Below the pieces are notes generated by a model that saw only the letters and a list, made by a program, of their open reading frames with translations, was not told the origin of the DNA and did not search any database. Below are positions 10,379 to 31,937 of a stretch of DNA of 46,458 nucleotides, one piece after another. The first letter of the stretch is position 1. Each line of letters begins with the position of its first letter. Position numbers and translations under genes: made by a program. Origin of the DNA: a bacterium (GTDB taxonomy: Bacteria > Patescibacteriota > Minisyncoccia > JAHIHE01 > JAGLIN01); the NCBI GenBank assembly GCA_030638825.1, contig DAOWDU010000014.1:1-46458 (forward strand), read 5' to 3'.

Positions 10379-13300
10379 TTATTTTGTCTCCCCTTTCCCT
10401 TTTCTTCTATAAAAGAAATACCAAGCGCCACCGGCAATAATTATGACAATAATCAAGAACGCGGGCAGATATTTTGAATATCTGTCGCCAGCGTATTCGC
10501 TGTCATCACCATTTTTTTCCTGAATATCCTGAATTGTAATTTCGCTTTTGTCTTCAGTTTCAGTTGTTTTTGTTTCGGTCACATCTTTATCTTCGACTGT
10601 TTCGTCTTTGTTTTCATCTTCGGCTTTATCTTCTTCATCTTCAACTCCGCCTACTCTGCCATATTCATCTTCCCCGTTTCCAGTTTCAGAATCTTCGCCA
10701 TCATCATCAGACATTTCAACGCTCTCGCTTAATATATCAGACATTCTCTCGCTAAATAACGCGACTTCCGCTTCTTGCTCTGCGGTTAGAGGGAATTCTC
10801 TCTGGCAATAAAGTTCGTTGATCTTTTTCTTTGTCGTAATATAGACATAACCAGTCGCTTTGTTATGGCTCCATGGGGAAAGAACATCATTTAAATATTT
10901 TTCCTGAAATCGAGAGACGGCATCAAAATCAACTTGTTCATAAATACCATTTACAAGAAGGTTTTCGCCTTCAAATTCATTCAAAAATCGTTCTACTTTT
11001 TCCACTTCAACGGGATTATTATCAGCGCCTAATTTGATATATTCCAGTAAATAATTACATTCTTCTGGAGGCGGTATCGGCGCTTCCGTTCCTTTTACTT
11101 CTCCCTCTTCAAAAACACAAAATACTTCATCGCCAACAACTTCCTCGCTGCCATTTCTATCCGCGACTGGTCTGAAATAATGCATCGCGCCATCTGTTAA
11201 TCCTGTAATCGTGACGCTATGTTCTTCATACATACTTCCTGATTCTTCATTGACAGAATTATATCCATATCCTGGCGCGTCGCCAAGATTTTCCGTATCT
11301 ACTGAATTATCATCATAAGCGACTTGATTAGTCGTGGTAATATTTGTCTTCCATGTTATCAACGCTTCGCCACTTTCTAAACAATCCGCTTTCTCGTCTG
11401 TTATTTTTATAACTGTTGGCGGTGTCCATCCACCACCACCTCCGCCGCCGCCGCCACACGAACCACAATCCTGCGGACAAGTGGAGCAAGTTTCGTTATT
11501 ATTACAAGTACCGTCTCCGCAATAAGGACTCGGCTCGTTATACTCATCATCATCTTCCGGGTCATAACTCTCCTCATTATTTACATCTCCGTCTGAATGA
11601 CAGCCCGGATCATCCGCATCGGTTAGTCCATCTTCGTCATCATCTAAGCCATTATTACATATAGCGTTAATAATGCATTGATTAGAACAATAAGCGTTAT
11701 CGCCATTATTTTCTCCTTCATCGCACTCCTCGTTATTTTCTTCATCTAAGACTCCATCGCCGCAATAAGATTCCACGATATTGATTATACATTCATTTGA
11801 GCATTCATCATCATCTATACTATTTCCGTCATCACAATCTTCGTCACCATTTTCAATTCCATCTCCGCAATATGGTCCAATTAGTTTTATCGTTTGACAA
11901 GAGCTTGAACAATAATCACAACTATCACCATAAACAGGATTACACTCAACGCCATTATAATCTCCATCATCACATTCCTCATCATTATCTTCATTTATAA
12001 TTCCGTCGCCGCAGTATGATTGGGGAGTCTCAATAAAAACGCACTCGACAGTGCAATTTGCCGATCCATCTGGTCCATCATCACATTGCTCATATCCGTC
12101 GTCTTGCGGACCGCCAGTTTCTTCGTCATTTGGCATTTGTTCAATTCCGTCGCCGCAATAAGTCAGATCGTTCAATGTACATTCATTTGAACAAGATTGA
12201 TGATCTCCAATTCCTTCCTGCCCATCGCATTCTTCGCCATCTTCCACAACGCCGTTTCCGCAATAAGAATTAAATAAATAATTACCAAAATCATAATTTT
12301 CTAAATTCTGCCCTTCAGGCAAAATGATATTTTGATATGAACCGCTAACTGGATAAGTCTGATTAAAAACATCTACTCCTGCTTTACCGCCCTCGTTAAT
12401 TTCATAAGTTCCAGGCAACAATCCCGAGAATTGATAACAGCCGTTTTCATCAGTTAATTGCGCGGCGTTAGAATGCCCACTTAAAATTATTTCCCAGTCA
12501 GGAATAGTTATAGTTTCATCATCTACATTTCCATCATTATCCGTATCTTCGTATTTACATCCGGAGACAGAACCATACTCGCACAACTGTTGAGAAATTT
12601 CTGTGTAGATAGTTGTGAGATCTCCGCTACTTGGCGCATAATAATAACCAGGAGAACCATCTCCTTTTTTAGCGCCAGTGATACTAGCAATCTCAGTTAG
12701 CATCGCAGTATTAATATCGCTTCCCAAACCAATCGTAAATATTTTATATCCTGCGCTCGCCGCAGCACTCGCCGCACTCAAAGCATGTTGTTTATTAGCT
12801 TCATTAACTGCATCATCATCTTCAATATAACGACCGCATTCATAATATTTAAGCTCATTATAATAAGGACAAGTCACTCTTCCGTCTGTCAAAAGAATAG
12901 CCACTTTCACCGCTTGTGGATTTGCTCTTACTGATCCTAATTCTGCGTTAGAAAAATAAATTGCATCTCCAATATTAGTTCCTCCGTCAGCATCTAAACT
13001 ATCAACGGCTAATTGAGTTTCTGCGTGATTATTAGATAACTCCTTATCTATCGGAAAAGTTGCTTCGCTTGCGTACGAAACCAGCGCTGACTGATCACCT
13101 GCTTTTAAATTGTCAATAAAACTATTTGCCGCATTCTGCGCGTTCGTTAATGGCTGAGCGGGACTCACACCGTCATCGTTCATACTACCCGACCGATCTA
13201 TTATCATTACCACATCAACAGCTGCCTCGCACATTTGCTGATTATCTCCCTCCGCTTTTAAAACATCTCCTCCAGGAGTAAGCACTCCTGCCATCGCTAT

Positions 13301-13387
13301 ATTCAGCAGCAACGCGATCATACTAAAGAAAGCTATTTTTTGATTAATCCCCTCTTTTGATTTTTTGTTAATTTTCATCATAAGCAA
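10379..13387 (-). CDS. Giant vWA surface protein with peptidoglycan-binding domain
   Basis: 1002 residues. Order: signal/membrane segment (about 17-38); von Willebrand A domain (about 57-270) with MIDAS DRSGSM (64-69); an SdrD-B-like beta domain (about 275-370) with D-rich calcium-type loops; six or so cysteine-rich YCGDG-x-EECDDG repeats (about 375-650); a run of nine glycines; an FN3-like domain (about 660-765); a peptidoglycan-binding-like domain (about 780-870); an acidic linker; and a C-terminal membrane helix with basic tail RRKGKGETK. It should be anchored in the membrane and reach through the wall. It is a paralogue of the next gene upstream. Start may be M1 or M3-M4. Adhesion is inferred. 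Confidence 0.85.
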   Translation of the reverse strand: MLMMKINKKSKEGINQKIAFFSMIALLLNIAMAGVLTPGGDVLKAEGDNQQMCEAAVDVVMIIDRSGSMNDDGVSPAQPLTNAQNAANSFIDNLKAGDQSALVSYASEATFPIDKELSNNHAETQLAVDSLDADGGTNIGDAIYFSNAELGSVRANPQAVKVAILLTDGRVTCPYYNELKYYECGRYIEDDDAVNEANKQHALSAASAAASAGYKIFTIGLGSDINTAMLTEIASITGAKKGDGSPGYYYAPSSGDLTTIYTEISQQLCEYGSVSGCKYEDTDNDGNVDDETITIPDWEIILSGHSNAAQLTDENGCYQFSGLLPGTYEINEGGKAGVDVFNQTYPVSGSYQNIILPEGQNLENYDFGNYLFNSYCGNGVVEDGEECDGQEGIGDHQSCSNECTLNDLTYCGDGIEQMPNDEETGGPQDDGYEQCDDGPDGSANCTVECVFIETPQSYCGDGIINEDNDEECDDGDYNGVECNPVYGDSCDYCSSSCQTIKLIGPYCGDGIENGDEDCDDGNSIDDDECSNECIINIVESYCGDGVLDEENNEECDEGENNGDNAYCSNQCIINAICNNGLDDDEDGLTDADDPGCHSDGDVNNEESYDPEDDDEYNEPSPYCGDGTCNNNETCSTCPQDCGSCGGGGGGGGGWTPPTVIKITDEKADCLESGEALITWKTNITTTNQVAYDDNSVDTENLGDAPGYGYNSVNEESGSMYEEHSVTITGLTDGAMHYFRPVADRNGSEEVVGDEVFCVFEEGEVKGTEAPIPPPEECNYLLEYIKLGADNNPVEVEKVERFLNEFEGENLLVNGIYEQVDFDAVSRFQEKYLNDVLSPWSHNKATGYVYITTKKKINELYCQREFPLTAEQEAEVALFSERMSDILSESVEMSDDDGEDSETGNGEDEYGRVGGVEDEEDKAEDENKDETVEDKDVTETKTTETEDKSEITIQDIQEKNGDDSEYAGDRYSKYLPAFLIIVIIIAGGAWYFFYRRKGKGETK

Positions 13388-13393
13388 AGTTTA

Positions 13394-13416
13394 ATTGATT
13401 AAATATATAGAAAGTT
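13394..13416 (-). promoter_or_regulatory. 23-bp conserved leader upstream of the vWA gene
   Basis: The 23 bp here are identical to 18226-18248 upstream of the other vWA giant, at a similar distance from the start codon. On the minus strand the element includes TATATA. It may be a shared promoter element or a remnant of the duplication that produced the paralogues. Confidence 0.55.
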
Positions 13417-13512
13417 TGTTATTTTCAAATTTTATGTAAAAACAAAAAACACACCCCCTCCCAAGAGTTTGTTTTTTTATTTTTGTTTTTATTTTTTACT
13501 CAACCCAATCTC

Positions 13513-13546
13513 GGAACCAAGTTCCGTAGACACGGAACTTGGTTCC
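13513..13546. repeat. 34-bp hairpin, 14-bp perfect stem
   Basis: Arms ggaaccaagttccg / cggaacttggttcc around a 6-base loop, just past the stop of the 1553-residue gene. There is no T-run in the minus direction, so it may be a dispersed palindrome rather than a true terminator. Confidence 0.85.
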
Positions 13547-13560
13547 TGTTGTTTTTATTT

Positions 13561-16500
13561 CTACATACTATTCGCGCTTCCCGGCGTTCCTCGCTCCACC
13601 GCATTATCATTATCATCCCAGCCAGTTTTGGTCAAGGCTGTAAACCAACTACTCGCTGAAGTTCCATCTACTGTATTATTTATTCTGGACATTGATTTTT
13701 TATCTCCGTTATCTCCCGCTAATGGCGCGCCTGCTCCATCATCAGCTACATCAATTGGATTATTATTACTACTTTCCGTATCATAAAGCTTATATTGAAC
13801 TGCGGAACTAGGAAGAGAAATTGCTGAATCTATAAAATCAGGGGCAACATTTAAAACTGATTCTCCACCAGTAAACATATGATCTTCGCCATTATTAGAA
13901 ATAAGGAAATAGTCATCTGCTTCAAGTATTCCAGTGTTAATCACAAGCATGGGCGAGTCATTCTTATATATTGACCACGGAGTATCGCTGAAATTAATTT
14001 CAAGAGATGTCATATTTCTCAATTCAATCCACTCGTCGCTTGAAGAAACAGACGATCCCATCCACATTAATTCATTAATAATCACATCGCCTACGCTAAT
14101 ACTACTACTATTTTCCGTTTCACAAATAGCGCTACAGCCATCACCATTTTCTGTGTTTCCATCATCGCACTCTTCATCACCTTCCATGACACCATCGCCA
14201 CAAACAGTCTCCCCTTCTTCAATTACACACAAACTTGAGCATCCATCGCCATCATCTAAATTTCCATCATCACATTCCTCGCCACCTTCCATAACGCCAT
14301 CGCCGCAAATATATTCGTCTTCCCCGCAACTATCATTTTGAGCTCCTGGCGTTCCTAAATTGTTATTACTATAAGAAGATGTTGAAACGCACCAATTGGA
14401 CCCAATATTATTATCGTTAAGCGGATCATTTAAAATCATAGAGGCGCCGTTAGGATCTGGAAATTCTAGTCCTCCGTCATATTCTACCCTATCAATTTCT
14501 ACACTATTACAAATTAAAATAATTTCATCATCTGTGTTTCCTAAAGTGAAACTATAAACATAATCAGGAGTTATACCGTCATTTATTAAGGGATCAATAT
14601 TTTTAGCAAGCACTGCGTATCCGTTTGCTGGAATAATTAGCGCTTCTCCGATTACATGCGGGTCGCTTCCGTTGTCACCGATAGTGCATCCCTCCAAATC
14701 AAGATCACTGCCAGTCGTATTATATAGTTCAAACCATTCGCCATTGGCATCAGAAACAACATCAGGATTCTGCATAATTTCATTAATCACAATATCACCC
14801 GCGCCGATACTGTCGTCATCCTCTAATTCACAGATAGCACTACATCCATCGCCATTTTCCACATTTCCGTCGTCGCATTCTTCATCTCCCTCTCGTACGC
14901 CATCTCCGCAAACAGGTGCGCTACTTTCAATATTACAAACAGCGGAACAGCCATCACCGTCTTCAGTATTTCCATCATCGCATTCTTCATCACCTTCCAT
15001 AACGCCATCGCCACAAATATATTCATCTCCTCCACAGCTATCATTCTGAATTCCCGGCGTTCCCAGATCGCCATTGCTATAGGAAGATGTTGAAAGACAC
15101 CAGTTGGCAAAATCATTATTGTCATTGGCTGGATTATTTAGAATTATAGAAGCGCCGACTCCCTCTGTCCAGCTACTTTCCTCATCATAATTCACTCTGT
15201 TAATTTCTACACTGTCGCAAGTCAAAACAATTTCATCTTCATCGTTTCCTAAAGTAAAACTAGCGTAAACATAATTAGAAATTACACCGCCGTTTTCTTC
15301 GGTATTTCCATTCTTGGCAAGCACCGCGTATCCGTTTGCCGGAACTATTAGAGATTCTCCGATTGGATGAGAATTACTGCCGTCATCAGAAATAATGCAT
15401 CCTTCTAATTCAATGTCGCTACCAGTTGTATTATATACTTCAAACCATTCGCCATTCGCGTCACTTACGGCTGTAGAATCATACATAATTTCATTGATAA
15501 CTACATCATCTAATAATATTGCTACGGAATCATCACTGTCCCCATCTCCGCCATCATTACTTTCTGTTTTACAATCAAAACTGCATCCATCGCCGTCTTC
15601 TGTATTTCCGTCATCGCATTCTTCGCCATCGTCCTCAATTCCATTTCCGCAAATCGGAAAATAATTCCCAAAATCATAGCCGACTTCTTCTTCTCCATCT
15701 TCTAAAATAATATCGTAAGACAATGTCTGCGGATAAGTCTGAATAAAATTAAGACCCTGATTATTCGCTTCTGATACAGTATAATTTCCGCCTGATAATC
15801 CTGTAAAAGAATAACAACCATCGCCATTAGTTAATTGCGTTAACTCTGCGTCTCCGCTTAAACTTATTTCCCAGTCAGACAAAGTCAATTCGCCAAAGAT
15901 CTCACCATCATTATTTGAGTCTTCATATTTACATCCGGAAATAGAACCGTACTGGCAAATCTCATAAGCAATTTCGCTGAATATTTCTTCCAGTTCATCA
16001 GCAGTTGGCGCGTTGTAATATTGAGCGCCAGTGTCAGCAGCGATATTCTGAAGCATTACCTCGTTAATATCATTTCCCAAACCAATCGTAAATATTTTAA
16101 TTCCGGATAGAGCGGCCTCCGCGGCCTTTTCTACGGCATAGGCGACATCAGCTGGATTTTCATTAAAACCATCTCCATTTGGTTTGTTTGCTAATCCATC
16201 AGTCAAAAGTATTTCTATCTTTAGAACATCTTCAGCGCTGCTTGAAAATTCATCATTAGCAAGTCCAATCGCGTCTCCTATGTTCGTCGCTCCAGACGCT
16301 GCTAAACTACTTATCGCTGTTTGAGTGATGAGGTGATCGTTAGAAAAAGGCTTGTTTAAATTAGCTGTTGTGCTAAATGAAACCAAGGCCGAGCGATCGT
16401 CAGAACCTAATTTTCCCACAAAACTGTTTGCCGCGATTTTTGCCTGGCCGAGACGAGTAGGGATTTCCCAACCCATACTTCCAGAGCGATCTACTATAAC

Positions 16501-18222
16501 CACTGTATCTAATTTAACCCGGCATAAACTTTCCAAAAGAACACAGCTTGCGGAACAAGTTTGATTTGCGCCTACTCCATCCTCGCCGTCACATTCTTCA
16601 TCGCCCTCTTTAATATCATTCCCGCAAATAGGACCTTGATATGGATCTAAATAAATACAAATCATTTCTAAGTTCACACTATTAGCGTGTATATCTGGCG
16701 GACACTCTGAAGTAGTGTTCATATAAACTGTCTGCAATCCTTCTACAAAAGAAAAGGCTCCTAAAGGTTCAAATCTAGTCGTGATTGCGTCTGGATCAAG
16801 ATCATCTTCAGAAATTATTCCATCCGTTCCGTTAATTTCTAAATAGAACGCTTCATTTGTTTGCGCTTGACCAAGATTACCGCGAGATGATAAACCATAA
16901 ACTTCCCCTTGAGCAGCCCAAGGAGCACTAATATCTACACTATCCTGAATTCGTCCTGATGAATGGCAACCATCTCCAACAACCCACAAAGCAGGATCTA
17001 AATCAATAATTAAATCAGCGTCCTCACAGAGACTTCTTATCTCGCATTGCGTTGAACAAGTTGAACCAGGCTCGTCGCTATTGTCATTGCCCTCGTCACA
17101 TTCTTCGGGTATTTCTAAAATCCCATTTCCACAGTCGTCTTGAACTGGAAAATAGTTTCCAAAATCTTTACCAGTCAAATGTTCTTCATTGCCTAAAGTT
17201 ATATCGTAAGATAATGATGGCGGATATGTTTGGATAAAATCTGTTATTCCATCCTTACCTCCTTCGCCAACAATATAATTTCCAGCCAATAAACCTGAAA
17301 ATTGATAACAACCATTTTCATCCGTCAGCTGCGTAATCGGACCATTTGTTTCGCCAGTTAAAATTATTTCCCAGTCAGAAATAGCGTCTTCTATAACAAA
17401 ATCTTCATTATCGCCGTCATTGTCAATGTCGTTGTATTTACATCCCGAGATAGATCCGTATTCGCATAACTCCCACCTAATAGATTCGTAGATGCTTTCC
17501 AAGTCTTCACTGTTCGGCGCGTGATAATATGCCGCGCCAGTGGTCTCTGCGACTTCCTGTAACATCTCTTCGTTTATTTTATATTGATCACCCAATCCGA
17601 TTGTAAATATTTTATATCCCAAGCCCGCGGCAGCGTTTGCGGCATCCAAAGTATAAGCGATATCCTCATCATCTTCCACAAAACCGCACATGCCATATAT
17701 TGAAGAATCATAGTAAGGGCAGGTCGCTCTTCCGTCCGTTAGAAGAATGGCCGCTTTCACCGCTTGCGGATTTGTCCTTGCGGATCCCAACTCTTGATTG
17801 GAAAGATAAATCGCATCGCCGATGTTTGTTCCGCCTTTTGCTCTTAAGTTACTGACCGCTGTTTGAGTAACAGAATGATCGCCAGACAATTCTTTGTTTA
17901 AAGTTGCCTCGCTCGCGTACGAAACTACTGCTGACTGATCATCCGCGCCCAAGTTGCTGAGAAAATCGTTTGCTGCGTTTTTCGCCTGCGATATTCTAGT
18001 TGGAATTTCCCAGCCCATGCTTCCAGACCGATCCATTATCAAAACAACATCAACCGCCGCTTCGCATAGCTCTTCTTCTATCGGCGCTCCTCTTGCTTCT
18101 GGAGCAGACAGAAATACGCCTGCCATTGAGACATTCAAGAGCATTGAAACTACGCTCAAGAAAGCTACCTTTCTGCAAACCCCCTCGTATGATTTTTTAC
18201 TTAGTTTTTTCATAATTTGCAA
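13561..18222 (-). CDS. Giant secreted protein: two vWA, Cys-rich repeats, three lamin-tail domains
   Basis: 1553 residues. N-terminal hydrophobic segment (about 17-40, ending near SAPEARGA); vWA 1 with DRSGSM (64-69); SdrD-B-like domain; a unique stretch; vWA 2 with DRSGSM near residue 577; a second SdrD-B-like domain; CGDGxxEGDEECDDG cysteine-rich repeats; and three lamin-tail-like domains beginning VINEIM/IINELM near residues 907, 1144 and 1382, each followed by more CGDG repeats. It ends ERGTPGSANSM with no membrane anchor or sortase motif, so it is probably released or held by other proteins. It shares its N-terminus and leader with the 1002-residue paralogue. Start may be M4 (MKKLSKKS). 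Calcium binding and adhesion are inferred. Confidence 0.85.
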   Translation of the reverse strand: MQIMKKLSKKSYEGVCRKVAFLSVVSMLLNVSMAGVFLSAPEARGAPIEEELCEAAVDVVLIMDRSGSMGWEIPTRISQAKNAANDFLSNLGADDQSAVVSYASEATLNKELSGDHSVTQTAVSNLRAKGGTNIGDAIYLSNQELGSARTNPQAVKAAILLTDGRATCPYYDSSIYGMCGFVEDDEDIAYTLDAANAAAGLGYKIFTIGLGDQYKINEEMLQEVAETTGAAYYHAPNSEDLESIYESIRWELCEYGSISGCKYNDIDNDGDNEDFVIEDAISDWEIILTGETNGPITQLTDENGCYQFSGLLAGNYIVGEGGKDGITDFIQTYPPSLSYDITLGNEEHLTGKDFGNYFPVQDDCGNGILEIPEECDEGNDNSDEPGSTCSTQCEIRSLCEDADLIIDLDPALWVVGDGCHSSGRIQDSVDISAPWAAQGEVYGLSSRGNLGQAQTNEAFYLEINGTDGIISEDDLDPDAITTRFEPLGAFSFVEGLQTVYMNTTSECPPDIHANSVNLEMICIYLDPYQGPICGNDIKEGDEECDGEDGVGANQTCSASCVLLESLCRVKLDTVVIVDRSGSMGWEIPTRLGQAKIAANSFVGKLGSDDRSALVSFSTTANLNKPFSNDHLITQTAISSLAASGATNIGDAIGLANDEFSSSAEDVLKIEILLTDGLANKPNGDGFNENPADVAYAVEKAAEAALSGIKIFTIGLGNDINEVMLQNIAADTGAQYYNAPTADELEEIFSEIAYEICQYGSISGCKYEDSNNDGEIFGELTLSDWEISLSGDAELTQLTNGDGCYSFTGLSGGNYTVSEANNQGLNFIQTYPQTLSYDIILEDGEEEVGYDFGNYFPICGNGIEDDGEECDDGNTEDGDGCSFDCKTESNDGGDGDSDDSVAILLDDVVINEIMYDSTAVSDANGEWFEVYNTTGSDIELEGCIISDDGSNSHPIGESLIVPANGYAVLAKNGNTEENGGVISNYVYASFTLGNDEDEIVLTCDSVEINRVNYDEESSWTEGVGASIILNNPANDNNDFANWCLSTSSYSNGDLGTPGIQNDSCGGDEYICGDGVMEGDEECDDGNTEDGDGCSAVCNIESSAPVCGDGVREGDEECDDGNVENGDGCSAICELEDDDSIGAGDIVINEIMQNPDVVSDANGEWFELYNTTGSDLDLEGCTIGDNGSDPHVIGEALIIPANGYAVLAKNIDPLINDGITPDYVYSFTLGNTDDEIILICNSVEIDRVEYDGGLEFPDPNGASMILNDPLNDNNIGSNWCVSTSSYSNNNLGTPGAQNDSCGEDEYICGDGVMEGGEECDDGNLDDGDGCSSLCVIEEGETVCGDGVMEGDEECDDGNTENGDGCSAICETENSSSISVGDVIINELMWMGSSVSSSDEWIELRNMTSLEINFSDTPWSIYKNDSPMLVINTGILEADDYFLISNNGEDHMFTGGESVLNVAPDFIDSAISLPSSAVQYKLYDTESSNNNPIDVADDGAGAPLAGDNGDKKSMSRINNTVDGTSASSWFTALTKTGWDDNDNAVERGTPGSANSM

Positions 18223-18225
18223 GTT

Positions 18226-18248
18226 ATTGATTAAATATATAGAAAGTT
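18226..18248 (-). promoter_or_regulatory. 23-bp conserved leader upstream of the giant vWA gene
   Basis: Identical to 13394-13416. It lies in the 41-bp gap between the NlpC/P60-vWA gene and this gene. Confidence 0.55.
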
Positions 18249-18263
18249 ATTTGTTGGATTGTT

Positions 18264-21044
18264 TTATTTCTCCGCTTCCTGAATCGCTCCTTGAGAATAT
18301 TTCCAGGATTGCCAATAATACCGAACCGCTTTTGCAGGATTGCTATTTTCATATTCCCAAGCTTGCTCTATTTCTTTCTCCGCTTTGGAAATCATTTCCT
18401 CAAAGTTTTTTTGTTGTTTCTCGCTTTTAACAAAAGTACTTTTAGCTTCACTCAAAATTACTTGCGCAATAATTTTATCAGCTAAAACTAAATCTTTAAT
18501 AACTTCTTCAAAAACATCTCCTGACAATTCCTGACGATTTAAATATAATTCCATTCTCGCAATAGCCGTCCTTTCAGACACGAAAACTTTATTTCCTTTT
18601 TTAGGATTAAGATGAATTTCATCTTCCCAGAGATCGTCCTTTAAAGATTTCTTAATATTTTTAATAACATCATCAATTTTTTTGTCTACTTTTTTATCTC
18701 CCGTTTTTGCTCTTTCTAAACTTTCTACTGTTTCTTCTTTAAGTTGTTTAGCGCTCTTGATTTCTACTTCTACAATTGCAGTATCAGTATCACTTGAGAT
18801 TCCATCTGAAACTTCTAAAAGAATTTCTCCTGTATATGAATTGTAATAAGTGTATTCTGTTGTAGAGTTGATTAACCAATCTGTTTCAAAAATATTATCA
18901 TTATTGAAATCCCAACGATATTTCAAGGGCTGATTTTCAGGATCAGTTGAACCTATCGCATCAAAAATTATTTTAATCCCCGCATAACCAGAATATGGTC
19001 CATTGGCATCTGCGACTGGAGGAAGATTTTCAGCGACAAAAGTGGAGATTGATTTTTCTCTCGTAAAAGGATCGCCCGCTCTATTTGTATTTCCTGACGC
19101 TTTGATATTGAAAGTATAACTTCCTGATTCCTGAGTATTATCAAATGTATTAGCATAAATTCCATCATTCGCTCCGCCATCATTATGATTACCATCATCG
19201 TAAAGTTGAAGGGTAAAAACAGTTTGAGCAGGAGTAGTCGCCTCAACACTAAAACTTGCGCTAGCGACATACTGCGGATCATCGCTATCTACAACTGGAT
19301 CCTGCGCAAAAGCGGTGATAGTTATTTCTTCGCCCTGAATATACTCAGGCTTGTTTAAGTTCGCTCCAAAGATCAAACCATTTATACCAGAAAGAGTAAA
19401 GACAAACGGTTCTCCTTCAGTTGGAACGTTTTCACCATAAAATTTTAGTTGCCATTGTCCATGAGTTGGATTTTCAATCCTGTAAAACTCATAGGTATCT
19501 CCTTCTGTAAATTCAATATCTGAATCACTTGTATTATGATTGATTTCCTTTCCATTTGGATCAACCAGAGTCAAATCTATATTACTGCCTGGCCACGAAA
19601 GAGAAAAGGTAACATTATGCATACTGGAATCAAGATAGGCAAATTTCGTTATTGTTTCTTGTGGTTTAATTTTCTCCTTAATTTTTATTATTGTATCTTC
19701 CCCTGAAATTTCTGACCAAAGATCTTGATAAATTTCTTGTAATGCTTCAGAAGTAGCGGCAAATTTATAGACACATCCAGTTTGTTGGGCAAGATTATTT
19801 AAAAGCTCCATATCAGAATTAAAACCAAGTCCGACTGTGCAAACTTTTATTTTATCTTTTTCTATTCCATTTATTACATCCGCCACCCAAGGAGGCGTAT
19901 TTTCCCAGCCGTCGCTCATTAGAATAATCGCTTTTTCTGAATCTTTTGTCCCAAGGGTTTTAAGCTGATTATGTCCTTCTTGCAATCCTGCGCCGACTGA
20001 AGTCATTCCCCATGCTTGAATATTATCAATTGCGTTTCTAATCTCCCATTTCACAACACTGGGTCTGCTTTTTTCAATTTCAGTTAAAGGATAGTCAACA
20101 ACGGCATTATCAGCAAAACTGGTTACTCCTATTTTGTGTCCAGTTTGCATATAATCAACAAATTGCTTAGCAGCGCTTTTAGCGAAAATCATCGGAAATC
20201 CAATCATACTTCCTGAACGATCAATAACAAGATCAACGTCCATAGTTTTAAAATAGGTGTAGGGAATATAGCCATCTCTTTTTAATTCGTTTTCAATGTC
20301 ATATTTGCTATCTCTTACTTTCCAATAATACCCCATAGATTCAGATACCTCTAAATTTTTATGAGGAATTTCAGAGTCTATAAATTTATTAAACAACATC
20401 GCATGACTGCCTTTCACATTAAGTAAATCTCCCCTTTTCAAATCATCATATTCATCTAACTTTCTAGAAATTTTAGGAAGTGACCATGTTGATTCTCTCG
20501 GATTTAAATTCCAAGATCTGGAAACAAAACCTGAACAATCAATTCCAACAGCGTGAGATGATCTATTTCCATATCGCGCATCGCCAGCGCATTTTCTATT
20601 TTCAACGCCTTCTTCAAAATCTCCATATCCTTTCATTTCTTTCAATCTTAAATCAATCCCATCAATTTCAATACTTGAACATCCTCCCCTTTGATAAGGA
20701 ATACTAATAGTTTCTTTCCAAACATCTGTCTCCTCTTCGTTTTCGTCTTTTTCTTTTTCTGCTTTCCATCCTCTTTCTTCTGTCCAAGTTTTATAAGTAT
20801 TCCTGTCTGGAGTATTAACTATGCATGCTATTTCTTTCACACATTCCCCTTTTTTATCCCATTTGATACAACACTTATTATGACAAATATTATCTTCTGT
20901 TGGTGTCCAAACATAAGTTTTATAGCTCTCTGCAATAGACATCATTTCATCTCTCGTAGCTATTGCAAAAGATGTCTGCGCTATAGCAAAACTGAACAAG
21001 AACAGAACTGCTAAAAACGATAATTTTTTGTTTAATATTTTCAT
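18264..21044 (-). CDS. NlpC/P60-like, vWA and PKD fusion, secreted
   Basis: 926 residues. Signal peptide (1-28, ending SFAIA). A cysteine-containing region leads to an NlpC/P60-like domain with VGIDCSGFVSRSW (Cys near 170) and GDLLNVKGSHAMLF (His near 213), the catalytic pair of cell-wall peptidases. Next comes a vWA domain with DRSGSM near 274 and TSVGAG, a beta domain resembling that after vWA in CLCA-type proteins, a bacterial Ig-like domain (GANLNKPEYIQGEE...), a PKD domain (ADANGPYSGY, about 680-760) and a long charged helical C-terminus. It likely acts outside the membrane on peptidoglycan or a surface partner. The fusion of a wall hydrolase to vWA is notable. The third catalytic residue is not assigned. 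Confidence 0.78.
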   Translation of the reverse strand: MKILNKKLSFLAVLFLFSFAIAQTSFAIATRDEMMSIAESYKTYVWTPTEDNICHNKCCIKWDKKGECVKEIACIVNTPDRNTYKTWTEERGWKAEKEKDENEEETDVWKETISIPYQRGGCSSIEIDGIDLRLKEMKGYGDFEEGVENRKCAGDARYGNRSSHAVGIDCSGFVSRSWNLNPRESTWSLPKISRKLDEYDDLKRGDLLNVKGSHAMLFNKFIDSEIPHKNLEVSESMGYYWKVRDSKYDIENELKRDGYIPYTYFKTMDVDLVIDRSGSMIGFPMIFAKSAAKQFVDYMQTGHKIGVTSFADNAVVDYPLTEIEKSRPSVVKWEIRNAIDNIQAWGMTSVGAGLQEGHNQLKTLGTKDSEKAIILMSDGWENTPPWVADVINGIEKDKIKVCTVGLGFNSDMELLNNLAQQTGCVYKFAATSEALQEIYQDLWSEISGEDTIIKIKEKIKPQETITKFAYLDSSMHNVTFSLSWPGSNIDLTLVDPNGKEINHNTSDSDIEFTEGDTYEFYRIENPTHGQWQLKFYGENVPTEGEPFVFTLSGINGLIFGANLNKPEYIQGEEITITAFAQDPVVDSDDPQYVASASFSVEATTPAQTVFTLQLYDDGNHNDGGANDGIYANTFDNTQESGSYTFNIKASGNTNRAGDPFTREKSISTFVAENLPPVADANGPYSGYAGIKIIFDAIGSTDPENQPLKYRWDFNNDNIFETDWLINSTTEYTYYNSYTGEILLEVSDGISSDTDTAIVEVEIKSAKQLKEETVESLERAKTGDKKVDKKIDDVIKNIKKSLKDDLWEDEIHLNPKKGNKVFVSERTAIARMELYLNRQELSGDVFEEVIKDLVLADKIIAQVILSEAKSTFVKSEKQQKNFEEMISKAEKEIEQAWEYENSNPAKAVRYYWQSWKYSQGAIQEAEK

Positions 21045-22284: not shown

Positions 22285-23191
22285 TTATTTATCCCCATTT
22301 TTTAAATACTTCTTAACCTCCCGATCAAAATCAGATATATATAATTGATCTTGAATCGGTCTGTATTTTTCAAACTCGCTTTCGGCAAATGCTTTGGCAA
22401 TTTCTGCCGTTATTTTTCCTGCATTCTCCAAAATTTCCTCTCCATTAAATTTCAGAAAAACATTTAATTTCTCCGACCAATCTTTCATTGTTATTGGAAT
22501 TCCTTTTTCCGCTTGGAGCTTTTTTCCAAGTCATCAGTCCCATATAATCTTTTTTGTGATCAGCTCTTTTAGAAATAAGCTCTGCGGCGGTGTTGCCGTG
22601 CGTAGCGTAACGGAGCTTGTTTTGCACAGTGGCAAAAAATGTTTTTGTAGTTTCTGAATCAAGATCATAGTCCATCGCAGTCGCATAAATATCTGTAATT
22701 TGCTGATAAAAATTTCTCTCGCTTTCACGAATATCACGAATTTCAAGAATTAAATCCTTAAAATATTGTTTATTAAAATACGCCCCACTTTTCAATCGTT
22801 CGCTATCTAAGGCATATCCTTTTATCGCATAATTTTTCAAAACTTTTGTCGCCCATCTTCTAAAATCTGTCGCTCTTTCAGAATTTATCCTGTATCCAAG
22901 CGAAATAATCACTTCTAAGTTGTAGTGCTTGGTATTGTAGCTTTTTCCATCTTTGGCAGTTATTCGGAATTTCCGAATAACTGAATTTTCATCTAATTCT
23001 TTTGATAAAAAAATATTTTTCAAATGCTCATTTATATTTGGAATATTGACATCAAAAAGCTTCGCGATTAATTTTTGCGTTAACCAAACATTTTCATCTT
23101 GCATGCGAACTTCAATTCCATCTTCTCCCGCTTGAGAAGTAAATATCAAAAATTCCGCCGCGCTATTTCTAATAATTAGTTTTTTTGTCAT
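22285..23191 (-). pseudogene. RhuM family protein, frameshifted and internally deleted
   Basis: Two frames together make one Virulence_RhuM-type protein. The first (23191-22445) has KKLIIRNSAAEFLIFTS, EVRMQDENVWLTQK, NLEVIISLGYRINSERAT and DYMGLMTWKKAPSGK, then runs into a foreign tail. The second (22488-22285) begins MKDWSEKLNVFLKFNGEEIL and continues to the family's C-terminus. Compared with the roughly 330-residue family, the segment that should join them (about 40 residues, around 22490-22510) is missing and the frame changes. The gene is probably dead, although the first 230 residues (the DNA-binding-like part) could still be made. Its role in bacteria is unclear. Confidence 0.8.
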
Positions 23192-26833: not shown

Positions 26834-28135
26834 TTAAAAAACATACTCTGTAAAAACCACCACTCGTTCAGAATAATTATTTTTCGCTTTGTCCCACACT
26901 CCCCCGCAAGTGATTAAATTTAAATAAATTCCGTCATCCGCTCCGAATATTTTTTCCATCGGCGCGGTTTCAGTTCCGTATTTTTCAGAAAAGATAACTT
27001 GAAAACGCTTTTTATTATTTTCGCCGTCAATCACAAAAACATCATCCCCCGCTTTTAATTTATGCAGATCCCAAAAAACCGCTGGCTGGCTGGATTTAGT
27101 GTCCAAATGTCCGACAATCACAGCGCTTCCAATTTCGCCAGGCTTTGGACCAAGATTGAACCACGCCACATCAGTGTTATTGCTCGGCGTTTTCATTTTT
27201 TGATTAGCGTCCAAACCAACATCTTGAATTCTGGTATTTATTCCTAATTTTGGAATCTCTAATTTCTGCGGAAGTTCTTTATTCTCTATAATTCCTGTTG
27301 CTGAATTTTTGCTAATAGCCGTCGCAACTGTCGTTGTATTATTTGCAATGTTATTATCGTCATTAGAAAACACTCCAAAAAAATCCTCGTTTTCTGTCTT
27401 TTTACTATTTACTATTGGCATTTGACTATCGTTTTTTACAACTTGTTGCGATTTTAAATTATAATTATTTTTTGCAAACTGCGGCAAAAACACTGACAGC
27501 TGAAATAGAAATATTCCCGTTGTCACAAAAAGCAAAACTGCGATTAAAGTTTGCTTTGATTTTGAAATATTCTCCTTCAATCTTAAATACTTCACAATTT
27601 CATTTCGTCTCGCTCCTAAATGAAGAAGATATTTTGCTAAACAAGCTACTTCACTGTCAGCATGAACAGACCGCAAATTATCAGTTTTTTCAATAATACC
27701 AACTAACAATAAATTAGCCGTTTCATTGTCAATTTCTAAAAACGGAGCTGTTTCTATTAATTTCGCTACAACTTCAGAAACAGAAACACGGTCTGACGAA
27801 TTGCGATAATCAATATTGACAATAGGTAAATTGGGATACATTTTTCTAAACGGTTTTGAATCTATTTTACCAATTGTAAAAATTAAATCGGTTTCAGTTT
27901 TAAATTCAACAATATTCTTTTTCTCTATTAAATCATATCCCGTTAAAAACGAAAACTTTTGCGAGATTTTATTTAGACAAATAATCTGCGGTTTTTTCTC
28001 CGCTTTTTTTAACACCCAAAAAAGCGCCAGCGCGCTGCTAATCATATCTCCGCTTGGATTTTTGGAAATTACGATTAGAGGTCTGGAGCTTTTTTCCATC
28101 AACTCTCTTATTTTTTCTTCATTATTTAAAGACAT
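26834..28135 (-). CDS. DHH-like domain, membrane helix and sortase fusion
   Basis: 433 residues. Residues 1-190 look like a decayed DHH/nanoRNase-type domain: VISKNPSGDMISSALALFWVLKK (the usual N-x-D-G-D-A metal motif is reduced to SGD), then GIIEKTDNLRS. A membrane helix follows (about 198-220). The C-terminal part (about 290-433) is a sortase with KLGINTRIQDVG, VIVGHLDT (His343), LITCGGVW (Cys410) and Arg424 in YSERVVVF, the complete catalytic triad. The sortase domain should face outside and the DHH-like part inside. The gene directly downstream of the MPKTG adhesin gene is this one, so the adhesin is its likely substrate. No housekeeping sortase elsewhere in the window. Confidence 0.85.
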   Translation of the reverse strand: MSLNNEEKIRELMEKSSRPLIVISKNPSGDMISSALALFWVLKKAEKKPQIICLNKISQKFSFLTGYDLIEKKNIVEFKTETDLIFTIGKIDSKPFRKMYPNLPIVNIDYRNSSDRVSVSEVVAKLIETAPFLEIDNETANLLLVGIIEKTDNLRSVHADSEVACLAKYLLHLGARRNEIVKYLRLKENISKSKQTLIAVLLFVTTGIFLFQLSVFLPQFAKNNYNLKSQQVVKNDSQMPIVNSKKTENEDFFGVFSNDDNNIANNTTTVATAISKNSATGIIENKELPQKLEIPKLGINTRIQDVGLDANQKMKTPSNNTDVAWFNLGPKPGEIGSAVIVGHLDTKSSQPAVFWDLHKLKAGDDVFVIDGENNKKRFQVIFSEKYGTETAPMEKIFGADDGIYLNLITCGGVWDKAKNNYSERVVVFTEYVF

Positions 28136-28162
28136 AAATATTTGTAATTACAATCAACATGA

Positions 28163-28195
28163 GGGTGCCATAGTCTCCGCAGAGCTGTGGCACCC
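28163..28195. repeat. 33-bp hairpin between adhesin and sortase genes
   Basis: Arms gggtgcca / tggcaccc with inner ctc/gag pairing. It lies in the 89-bp gap, transcribed between the two genes; no T-run. Confidence 0.65.
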
Positions 28196-28224
28196 AGAAT
28201 GCAAGATTTTGCAGAATATTTATC

Positions 28225-30714
28225 TTAATTACATTTTAACCCACGCTCCCGATACGCTTTTCTGAAGATCCCAACAATCATCACAGCAGAAATCACAAGC
28301 AATATCTGTTGCCAATTATTACTCGCAACCGCACCTTCCCCTCGTCCTGTTTTTGGCATTTCTTTCGGAATAATTGCTGTTCCTTTTACCTTTTCAACAC
28401 GCACAATCGCGTCATCTGTATCAGTAGCGTATTTTCCATCAACTTGTCCTCGGACTGTTCCAATGTTCGTTGTTGTCTTAGTGATATTAGACTCACAGCT
28501 ATATTTCCATACTTCGGTCGGATCAAGTTTATTGTCGCTGTTAATATCTCCATCTACAAAAATTACGGGAGAACATTTGTCGTCAACCAAAGTCACATCT
28601 GAAATTGCTTTAATTCCTTCGTTATATACTTCATAAGAATAAACAACTAAACCGCCTCCTTCAGGCAACGATTCGGGATTAGCTGTCTTTTCCAATCTAA
28701 TCGCTAAATCCACAGTCGGCACAGTAACAGTCGCTGTCGTTGTGTCTGTCACATTTCCCTTAACACTTTCTCCTGTCACAACAACTGTGTTCAGTGTTGT
28801 TTCCGTTAAGTTAGATTGACAAGTATATTCCCAAATCTCGCCTCTGTCTAATTTGTCATTTGTATTTTTATCGCCATCTTTGTATTCTATTCCGTCACAT
28901 TTGTCATCAACTAAAGTTACATTTGAAAGAGCGTAATGTCCTGGATTAGTCACTTCGTAAGTGTAGATTACTTCACCTCCGCCAACTGGCAAAGTTCTCG
29001 GTTCTGGAGTTTTGATTATTCTGATTGCGGGATAATAAGACACTCCTCCACCTCCGCTACTTACTGAAACTGATGCGTTAGCAGTCGCTTCTACTTTTTG
29101 AGTATTATGATACCCTTCCACTGTCGCCACATTAGTAGTATTCGCAGTTATATTCGCGCTCTGCGTATATGTCCAAGTTTCTGTTAAATCAAGAATATCA
29201 TCACTATTATCATCTCCTGTATAAGAAGTTAATTCTCCTAATTTATCATCAACTAATTTAATATCTGCTAAAGCGACATCGCCAGGATTAGTCACGACAT
29301 AAGTATAATCCACATTTCCTCCACCCACTGGCAAAGAAGTTGGATTTGCTATTTTCGTAATTGCAATTATCGGATCATCTTGCGAAGGAGTTTCTACTGT
29401 AACTGTCGCCTCAGCAGTAACTGGACCTACGGTTTGACTATTATAGATTCCTTCAACTGTCGCAATATTTGTCGTATCTACAGTTATATTCATCTCGCAA
29501 GTATATATCCAGGTTTCCGTTGTTTCAAGAGTATCTATAACATTACTATCTCCGCTAACATAAGTGACAGCGCTACATTTGTCATCCGTTAAAACAATAC
29601 TTTCAAGATCAACATTTCCAGGATTACTTACTTCATAAGTATAAATCACATCTCCTCCGCCAACAGGCAAAGAAGTTGGATTTGCTATTTTCGTAATTGC
29701 AATTGCTGGATTAGCTGGAGGAACGATTTTTTCAAACACGGCGCATACTGGATAAACACTATTTGGACCTGTTCCCTGATTTCCAGCATGATAAGCAGTA
29801 ACAGAAGCCACATCTGCTGAAACAGTAAGGTTATTATTAACTACTTCATCATTCATTGCATAGTCAATACCATCGCTTAAATCACTACTTGTGCCAGTCG
29901 TCGCAATATCATTGTTGCTACTATCATTCAAAATTGCGTACCACTGTTCTTGCAACTGAGACTGACTGCTTCTACTAGGATATCCATCATGTGAAACAGC
30001 TTTTACTTCATAAACGCCAGCTGGAATATCTGCTTGAACAGGACCAGCTTGAATTGGAGCAGGCTGAATAAGTTTATTTGGAAACATCACAACTGTTTTT
30101 CCTTGATTTGCGTAATTATCACAAACTGCTTGAGCGTCAGCAAGAGATGGCGCTTCTTCGCCAATCACATTTAATTCTCTTACAACGGTTACTTGTGAAT
30201 CTGGCTCAGAAGATAGTGCTTCAAGCTTAATATATCTTCCTATTTTAGAATTACTAAATAATACTTCTTGCTCCGATGTATCTATTGGGAACATTCCTGT
30301 TGCCACTGCATCACCCCAGTCTGTTGTATCTTTTGAAACATAAAATTTGTATTCTTTAATATTGCCATTTCCACCATCTGTCCTTGGCAAATATCTGAAT
30401 CCTGAGATGTCATAAGTAAAACCCAAATCTATCTGTATTTCGTGAGGAAGCGTTGCGTCTGGATTATTGACAAGCCATTCAGAATGCCAAAAAGTATTTA
30501 CATCGCCATCAAATGCGTATTCTCCCCGCTGGTCTGCTGAAACCAACTCTTCACTATCCACATATTGCAATGTCCAATTAGCTTGAGAAATTACAGTAGT
30601 CGCATTTGTTATTGGGGTAACTAATAAATTCAATGGAAAAGCGATTAAAACAGTCAAAAAACAATATAACGCTTTTTTTAATAAAATCTCTCTCTTTAAT
30701 AATTTCTGTCTCAT
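28225..30714 (-). CDS. Sortase-anchored surface protein: discoidin domain and four DUF11 repeats
   Basis: 829 residues. Signal peptide (about 13-40). An F5/8 type C (discoidin-like) domain (about 42-190) with AFDGDVNTFWHSEW, IQIDLG and GRYIKLEA. A linker region follows. Then four DUF11-type repeats begin near 338, 450, 565 and 671, each with the pattern K-x-xxPxSLPxGGGxVxYTYEVxNPG ... LVDDKC ... GDxNxDxKLDxxE-x-W-x-Y-x-C. The C-terminus has the LPXTG-like motif MPKTG (786-790), a membrane helix (about 811-825) and a basic tail. This is a classic sorting signal. Discoidin domains bind carbohydrate or lipid, so adhesion is likely. Confidence 0.88.
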   Translation of the reverse strand: MRQKLLKREILLKKALYCFLTVLIAFPLNLLVTPITNATTVISQANWTLQYVDSEELVSADQRGEYAFDGDVNTFWHSEWLVNNPDATLPHEIQIDLGFTYDISGFRYLPRTDGGNGNIKEYKFYVSKDTTDWGDAVATGMFPIDTSEQEVLFSNSKIGRYIKLEALSSEPDSQVTVVRELNVIGEEAPSLADAQAVCDNYANQGKTVVMFPNKLIQPAPIQAGPVQADIPAGVYEVKAVSHDGYPSRSSQSQLQEQWYAILNDSSNNDIATTGTSSDLSDGIDYAMNDEVVNNNLTVSADVASVTAYHAGNQGTGPNSVYPVCAVFEKIVPPANPAIAITKIANPTSLPVGGGDVIYTYEVSNPGNVDLESIVLTDDKCSAVTYVSGDSNVIDTLETTETWIYTCEMNITVDTTNIATVEGIYNSQTVGPVTAEATVTVETPSQDDPIIAITKIANPTSLPVGGGNVDYTYVVTNPGDVALADIKLVDDKLGELTSYTGDDNSDDILDLTETWTYTQSANITANTTNVATVEGYHNTQKVEATANASVSVSSGGGGVSYYPAIRIIKTPEPRTLPVGGGEVIYTYEVTNPGHYALSNVTLVDDKCDGIEYKDGDKNTNDKLDRGEIWEYTCQSNLTETTLNTVVVTGESVKGNVTDTTTATVTVPTVDLAIRLEKTANPESLPEGGGLVVYSYEVYNEGIKAISDVTLVDDKCSPVIFVDGDINSDNKLDPTEVWKYSCESNITKTTTNIGTVRGQVDGKYATDTDDAIVRVEKVKGTAIIPKEMPKTGRGEGAVASNNWQQILLVISAVMIVGIFRKAYRERGLKCN

Positions 30715-30977: not shown

Positions 30978-31937
30978 TTAGGCAACAACACACATTTTAA
31001 CAAGCCAAAATTTATAATTAAAGAACGAGATGATTTTTCCAAAAGTTTTTTCTTCCCCTTCTCCTTCACAATTATTCCAAAAAATATCTTCCGTAAAAGT
31101 TTTGTCCAATGGCTCTATGTTCTCCGTTGGAAACATAATTGGAAGTATAAGCTCTTCGTTTGTCTCTTCTGCTACTATCTCTTCGTCCTTTTTAATTTCA
31201 TCATCTTCACTCTTATTTTCTTCTTCTCTATTTCCTTCATCCTCTCTATAATTCTTATCTTCAAAATAAACTACGGGGGATTTAATTTCAACAAGTTCTT
31301 TTTTTGGTTCTGCTACTTTTATTTCTTCTATTTTAATTTCTGGCTTCTTTTCTACTGAGTTAATATCAACATCTCCTTTAATATTAATTTCGCTATCTTT
31401 ATTTTTTTCGGCTACAATTATTTTTTTTACTTCCATTGGAGAACCAAATTCTTCAACAATAATAATACTTTCATTTCCATCAAAAATTCCTTTTTTCACC
31501 GCAATGCCAACTTCAGTATAATTTGGTTTTAAAATATTATCACGATGAGTGATGCTTCTCATCAAGGCCAAATGAGTTCCTTCCGCTGTCACAAAATCAA
31601 TCGCTAAATTTTCCCCCGCGTAAAGATAATTGTATCCCGCTGATTTTATCCAGTACCACGGAGTTACTCCGCTAGGACTATTATGATCAAAATATTGAAA
31701 CTCAAACATATCATTAACTTTCGCTTCCGCCGCTGCCGTAAGTTTGCTATTAACTTTAAGCGGTAAAAGTCCAGATTTTTTTCTAGACTCATTCGTCAGC
31801 TCAATCATTTTCTGCGCAGTAATATCAGCAGCAATCACCGCCTGGCTATAACTCAACAAAACAAAAACAGAAGAAATAGCTATAATCCACTTTTTAACGA
31901 TTTTTGTATTTTTGTTTTTATCTATTTTTATTTTCAT
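30978..31937 (-). CDS. Secreted CAP/SCP-domain protein with acidic tail
   Basis: 319 residues. Signal/membrane segment (about 16-36); CAP domain (about 42-172) with MIELTNESRKKSGL, FDHNSPSG, GYNYLYAGENLAIDF, HRDNILKPNYTEVGIAV and IIIVEEFG. Bacterial CAP proteins are secreted and bind metal, lipid or wall; the His and Glu of the usual site are present (HNSP, GENLA). A long Glu/Lys-rich low-complexity tail (about 180-275) follows, then a hydrophobic end (KIISFFNYKFWLVKMCVVA). It is the first gene of the minus-strand surface island and has a good promoter at 32022-32050. Confidence 0.85.
   Translation of the reverse strand: MKIKIDKNKNTKIVKKWIIAISSVFVLLSYSQAVIAADITAQKMIELTNESRKKSGLLPLKVNSKLTAAAEAKVNDMFEFQYFDHNSPSGVTPWYWIKSAGYNYLYAGENLAIDFVTAEGTHLALMRSITHRDNILKPNYTEVGIAVKKGIFDGNESIIIVEEFGSPMEVKKIIVAEKNKDSEINIKGDVDINSVEKKPEIKIEEIKVAEPKKELVEIKSPVVYFEDKNYREDEGNREEENKSEDDEIKKDEEIVAEETNEELILPIMFPTENIEPLDKTFTEDIFWNNCEGEGEEKTFGKIISFFNYKFWLVKMCVVA

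Follow-up and report, generated by a model that had tools for sequence, protein, structure and literature searches.

In the usual picture, a sortase faces outward and has little of its mass inside the cell. The sortases of class F and those of the Patescibacteria, the latter 180–240 amino acids (aa) long, combine a His/Cys/Arg domain with a membrane helix and a short cytoplasmic tail, next to a gene for an LPXTG-like substrate. The DHH/DHHA1 phosphoesterases, including TM1595, NrnA, DhhP and the catalytic part of GdpP, form a second well-described group, in which the DHHA1 half completes the substrate site of NrnA. Cdc45 is a DHH/RecJ-fold protein used structurally and not as an enzyme. In a 46,458-nucleotide stretch of a patescibacterial contig (DAOWDU010000014.1, assembly GCA_030638825.1; hereafter the window), a sortase is joined across a membrane helix to a 195-aa domain of predicted DHH fold, which takes the place of the short cytoplasmic tail of ordinary sortases. 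The fused domain resembles the DHH/DHHA1 phosphoesterases in fold, by profile and Foldseek comparison, and differs from them in its missing catalytic positions, its missing DHHA1 half and its attachment to a helix and sortase. Searches of the open-access literature returned no description of a DHH–sortase fusion, in keeping with a preliminary description of this DNA, which knew of no such example.

Architecture and conservation of the fusion gene

The fusion gene lies on the minus strand at 26834–28135, exactly where the preliminary description had placed its open reading frame (ORF), and encodes 433 aa in a genome (G000) of 1.145 Mb that is 99.5% complete in 57 contigs. Its product comprises the DHH-like domain (residues 1–195; 27551–28135), a single transmembrane helix (residues 197–215; 27491–27547), a variable linker (residues 216–286; 27278–27490) and a class F-like sortase domain (residues 287–433; 26837–27277). 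Hydropathy analysis identifies this one strong hydrophobic helix, K/R-rich on its N side (five K/R and one D/E over residues 181–198), a topology that would place the DHH-like domain in the cytoplasm. The architecture first described for this gene, an N-terminal domain, a membrane helix and a sortase, is one on which Pfam, hhalign, Foldseek and hydropathy agree.

A second species of the genus (G002; record JAGLIN010000012.1, Candidatus Parcubacteria bacterium) carries a full-length orthologue (L003/L077/L090) with 75% identity to the window copy, in the same gene order: a CAP protein, a repeat protein, the fusion and two more genes that by eye have a secreted look. The CAP-domain neighbour of the window copy is encoded on the minus strand at 30978–31937 (Pfam CAP, 58.6 bits). 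Compared with its orthologue, the window copy is missing 7 + 11 residues (18 in total) around the DHH motif and a further 16 from the linker, which is 58% identical over residues 223–286 and contains two indels. Draft genomes as fragmented as these could in principle create a false join through assembly or frame, an explanation to which we give next to no chance, as unbroken frames of 437 and 467 codons and an identical gene order recur in two species and two assemblies. The two-domain gene is genuine and conserved between the two species.

Elsewhere in the window, three large minus-strand genes (10379–21044) have a secreted look and carry, by eye, von Willebrand A-like ‘DRSGSM’ motifs. A gene for a RhuM family protein (22445–23191; Pfam, 234 bits) sits amid the surface-protein cluster, and none was seen in the G002 ORF list, which covers 12 kb.

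One survey (PMC6744442) reports sortases in more than half of all CPR genomes, with a patchy distribution outside the Microgenomates. Sortases were found in 135 of 383 sampled genomes of the class, and 65 of the 383 match the sortase domain of the fusion, the close subfamily being mostly of ordinary length; ten class genomes (nine with weak or unlisted matches, plus G267) were searched again singly, and second matches in the others may have gone unseen. The fusion itself is present in 2 of the 18 genomes of its order and, among the matches listed, in no other sampled genome. We also carried out the domain-architecture search for DHH plus sortase proposed in the preliminary description: 100 of 102 loci fetched through sortase searches (several overlapping, three containing the fusion) held a sortase ORF, with DHH matches confined to the fusion loci. 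Across a phylum-wide sample of 379 genomes, of which G002 is not a member, the window genome gave the only fused match among those listed. A contig scan with two peptide patterns, which reaches close relatives only, returned one locus, and a scan of viral contigs for the fusion returned none.

Sortases of the class are joined to other partners as well. Seven genomes encode a sortase with an N-terminal multi-helix domain resembling phospholipid/isoprenylcysteine methyltransferases (L048, L058, L059, L067, L068, L069 and L071, from G137, G097, G213, G204, G280, G118 and G227, respectively); Pfam PEMT scores 27.5 bits on L069, over its cut-off, and falls below it on L048 and L058, and a CAP-like gene, recognized by eye, adjoins the fusion in L067, L068 and L071. 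At two further loci (L060 in G201; L073/L185 in G299), a single ORF combines a DUF11-type surface protein, an LPxTG-like signal with its helix and a sortase domain, the catalytic Cys position in L073 being Ser (LQTSYP). In L070, L072/L088 and L075, calcium-binding-like TSP3 repeats precede the sortase within the same ORF, supported in L075 by a Pfam TSP3_bac match of 44 bits and read by eye in the others.

A single sortase and its probable substrate

Pfam Sortase (PF04203) matches residues 292–430 with 61.7 bits, well over its cut-off (26.6). The complete triad noted in the preliminary description was located at the residues given there, His343, Cys410 and Arg424, each invariant in the orthologue. 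Class F (NCBIfam NF033748) is by far the best-scoring class, although its 129.1 bits fall short of the cut-off (166). The nearest sortases form a discrete Patescibacteria subfamily with 34–46% identity to this domain. Profile searches detect one sortase in the window genome; a TIGR01167 search of the same genome was left unused, since 14 of 14 controls matched at the same E-value.

The gene preceding the fusion (28225–30714, minus strand) encodes an 829-aa protein with an F5/8 type C domain, DUF7507/DUF11 repeats and a terminal sorting signal (28225–28359), in which MPKTG (28345–28359) is followed by a hydrophobic helix and an RK-rich tail. This anatomy closes the protein in both species, with Met in place of the usual Leu. 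Among all matches to PKTG codons (19 in G000 and 9 in G002), one protein only has the full anatomy, a search confined to PKTG that signals with another middle residue would escape. The 829-aa repeat protein is therefore, judging from its signal and position, the probable substrate of the single sortase of the genome.

The 89-nucleotide gap between the two genes (28136–28224, minus strand) contains a GC-rich hairpin (RNA fold z = −4.00), and the orthologous gap in G002 folds too (z = −2.69) with a different sequence. No Rfam match was found at or near the hairpin; a search of the window for the hairpin pattern had no match, and we draw nothing from it. The hairpin is perhaps a partial terminator that reduces sortase output.

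Fold and catalytic residues of the N-terminal domain

The Pfam DHH model (PF01368) scores 18.2 bits on residues 20–147 of the window copy, under its cut-off of 28.1, and 31.6 bits on the orthologue, over that cut-off. By hhalign, the two fused domains match a 12-sequence family of proteins of about 380 aa with 99.96% probability, and the profile of that family in turn matches the DHH phosphoesterase TM1595 (E = 7.8 × 10−26) and NrnA structures. Foldseek with a model of the orthologue's domain, of modest quality (mean pLDDT 51.8, pTM 0.54), ranks TM1595 first (E = 2.8 × 10−7, probability 1.00), followed at lower ranks by NrnA, DhhP, family II pyrophosphatase, GdpP and, further down, Cdc45; the full-length model was poor (mean pLDDT 36.4) and was excluded from claims about the fold. 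VIA-align places DHH chains level with other Rossmann folds (Z of 11–12, transhydrogenase domain III topping the list), the DHH chains covering 181–198 residues against about 140 for transhydrogenase domain III and the other Rossmann folds, a result that, given the modest quality of the model, is weak support on its own. Profile search and structure prediction, the check set out in the preliminary description, thus both lead to the DHH family, and residues 1–195 are assigned a DHH fold on this predictive evidence.

Eight metal or catalytic positions, chosen from the known DHH motifs, were scored with the intact NrnA encoded by this genome as reference. The window copy retains two of the eight, the second motif I Asp (P-S-G-D) and that of the DHH motif, and its orthologue three; in the window copy, other residues replace the first Asp of motif I, the Asp residues of motifs II and IV and the His positions. 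The domain had earlier been described as a degenerate DHH that has lost DGD: its degeneracy is borne out, and the loss of DGD is partial, the second Asp persisting. The DHHA1 half with its GGGH motif is absent from the fusion protein. A still active phosphoesterase with a changed metal site would account for the retained fold and the two Asp ligands, and we regard it as very improbable, with so many ligands replaced, the DHHA1 half gone and the catalytic job already covered by an intact NrnA encoded elsewhere in the genome. On these residues, the fused DHH domain is predicted to be dead as an enzyme.

Both parts of the protein are nevertheless constrained. Between the two species, the DHH part has dN 0.151 and dS 0.63 (dN/dS of about 0.24) and the sortase dN 0.080 and dS 0.66 (about 0.12); pN/pS values with 95% bootstrap intervals are 0.32 (0.22–0.46) for the DHH part, 0.52 (0.31–1.09) for the linker and 0.17 (0.11–0.27) for the sortase. 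Identity is complete over residues 161–180 (20/20) and nearly so over residues 21–40, around motif I (19/20). Both domains are under purifying selection, less strict in the DHH domain than in the sortase, with an interval for the former that overlaps that of the linker.

Ancestry in a pilB-linked family

In a phylogeny of 55 DHH domains, both fusions join ~380-aa proteins from G016 and G017, members of a sister family within the order (support 97/90), and do not group with the ~380-aa paralogue of their own genome. The stem of the fused domains is long (1.31 changes per column), so that their exact placement is less certain than their group. NrnA sequences form a clade of their own (100/100) with the fusions outside it; an NrnA origin is rejected by this separation together with the motif table. 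The preliminary description had called the domain a decayed nanoRNase-like one; as a decayed NrnA of this lineage it does not hold up, since the genome encodes its intact NrnA separately and the fused domain falls in a different family.

That family, for which we found no name, contains the closest relatives of the fused domain, their motifs lost alike. Its members have no sortase, a 45-aa insert, a DHHA1-like second half and an adjoining pilB; the fusion is the reverse, having a sortase and lacking the insert and the second half, with surface-protein genes and no pilB next door. A PilB homologue, identified by T2SSE and MshEN matches, lies directly beside the gene of this ~380-aa family (L126–L132 and L133–L161) in 27 of 30 class loci, these being the best-scoring 30 of a longer list, one per genome. 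The three exceptions are the window genome, with PilB about 4 kb off behind three genes, one locus near a contig end and one without PilB. In the window genome (L126, 3282–6755), two of the three genes between the pseudo-DHH gene and pilB look by eye like DNA methyltransferases. The fused domain is, from tree and profile comparison, best read as derived from this pilB-linked pseudo-DHH family of the Patescibacteria.

Elsewhere in the phylum, pilB was found near the DHH gene in none of 20 fetched stretches (19 holding the DHH gene), and the link may for this reason be local to one class. Some family members elsewhere in the phylum have all catalytic residues and others have lost them, and loss of catalysis is therefore widespread in the long-insert family. 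Literature searches returned no report of a DHH protein encoded next to pilB in Patescibacteria. The ~380-aa family is possibly a new partner of type IV pili, a candidacy suggested by gene neighbourhood. Type IV pili matter for host binding by episymbiotic Patescibacteria, according to one report (PMC12206443).

Possible roles of the fused DHH domain

From the computed features (fusion, fold, catalytic loss, ancestry, purifying selection and an adjacent substrate), we infer a topology, sortase activity, docking and a partner as follows. The protein would be a single-pass sortase, N terminus in and C terminus out, in which a dead DHH domain stands where ordinary sortases have a short cytoplasmic tail. 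Outside, the sortase would cleave the MPKTG of the neighbouring repeat protein and attach it to the envelope, as the anatomy of the signal and the gene order suggest. Inside, the DHH domain would serve as a non-catalytic binding module, most likely docking the sortase onto an assembly in the cytoplasm or membrane, possibly that of its relatives beside PilB, and the place or time at which the surface protein is anchored could thereby be set. That the domain is a cytoplasmic docking module positioning or regulating a one-substrate sortase is a tentative reading, which we hold with slightly less than even confidence. A protein partner is favoured because catalysis and the DHHA1 half are gone, no GGDEF or DAC domain was found and the relatives are tied to the gene for the pilus ATPase. 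Cdc45 offers a precedent for a dead DHH fold as a structural part, although by analogy only, being a replication factor of unrelated context that ranks low in the Foldseek list. Docking is weakened by the absence of pilB beside the fusion gene, by a pilB link that may be local to one class and by the long stem of the fused domain; the 18-residue loss in the DHH part of the window copy, which could mean weak constraint, also counts against it.

The same loss suits an inert tail, a slowly decaying DHH remnant captured by accident, whose only use would be to anchor the N terminus or set the topology, as do the missing insert and DHHA1 half of the relatives and the long stem in the tree. Purifying selection (dN/dS of about 0.24) and the invariant stretch at residues 161–180 oppose it, the lower pN/pS relative to the linker being supportive only, because the intervals overlap, and we consider an inert tail doubtful. 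The domain might instead bind a ligand (a mononucleotide, pApA or short RNA) in its degenerate pocket and signal through the helix to the sortase. AMP, GMP and pApA are bound by DHH relatives with PDB structures, and the two retained Asp residues and the near-identity around motif I would fit such a sensor, which we think unlikely with six of eight positions lost in the window copy, no DHHA1 half and neither GGDEF nor DAC cyclase domains found by profile searches of G000, G002 and G017 (of 14 control genomes, 8 and 11 were positive for the two profiles, respectively). Cyclic-dinucleotide sensing or gating is itself unlikely, no GGDEF or DAC having been found. Nucleotide sensing as a gate on the sortase, an idea of the preliminary description, is thus left unsupported, if unrefuted.

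Implications

Beyond docking at this one locus, the DHH nuclease fold could be a reusable cytoplasmic adaptor for the surface-assembly machines of Patescibacteria, standing alone beside the pilus ATPase or welded to a sortase, with a host-facing adhesin covalently anchored at the type IV pilus site; we offer this as speculation, and rate it a long shot. The pilB-linked pseudo-DHH family is perhaps a wider lead than the fusion. For sortases, a cytoplasmic domain of such size and conservation suggests that the covalent display of surface proteins may be positioned or regulated from inside the cell.
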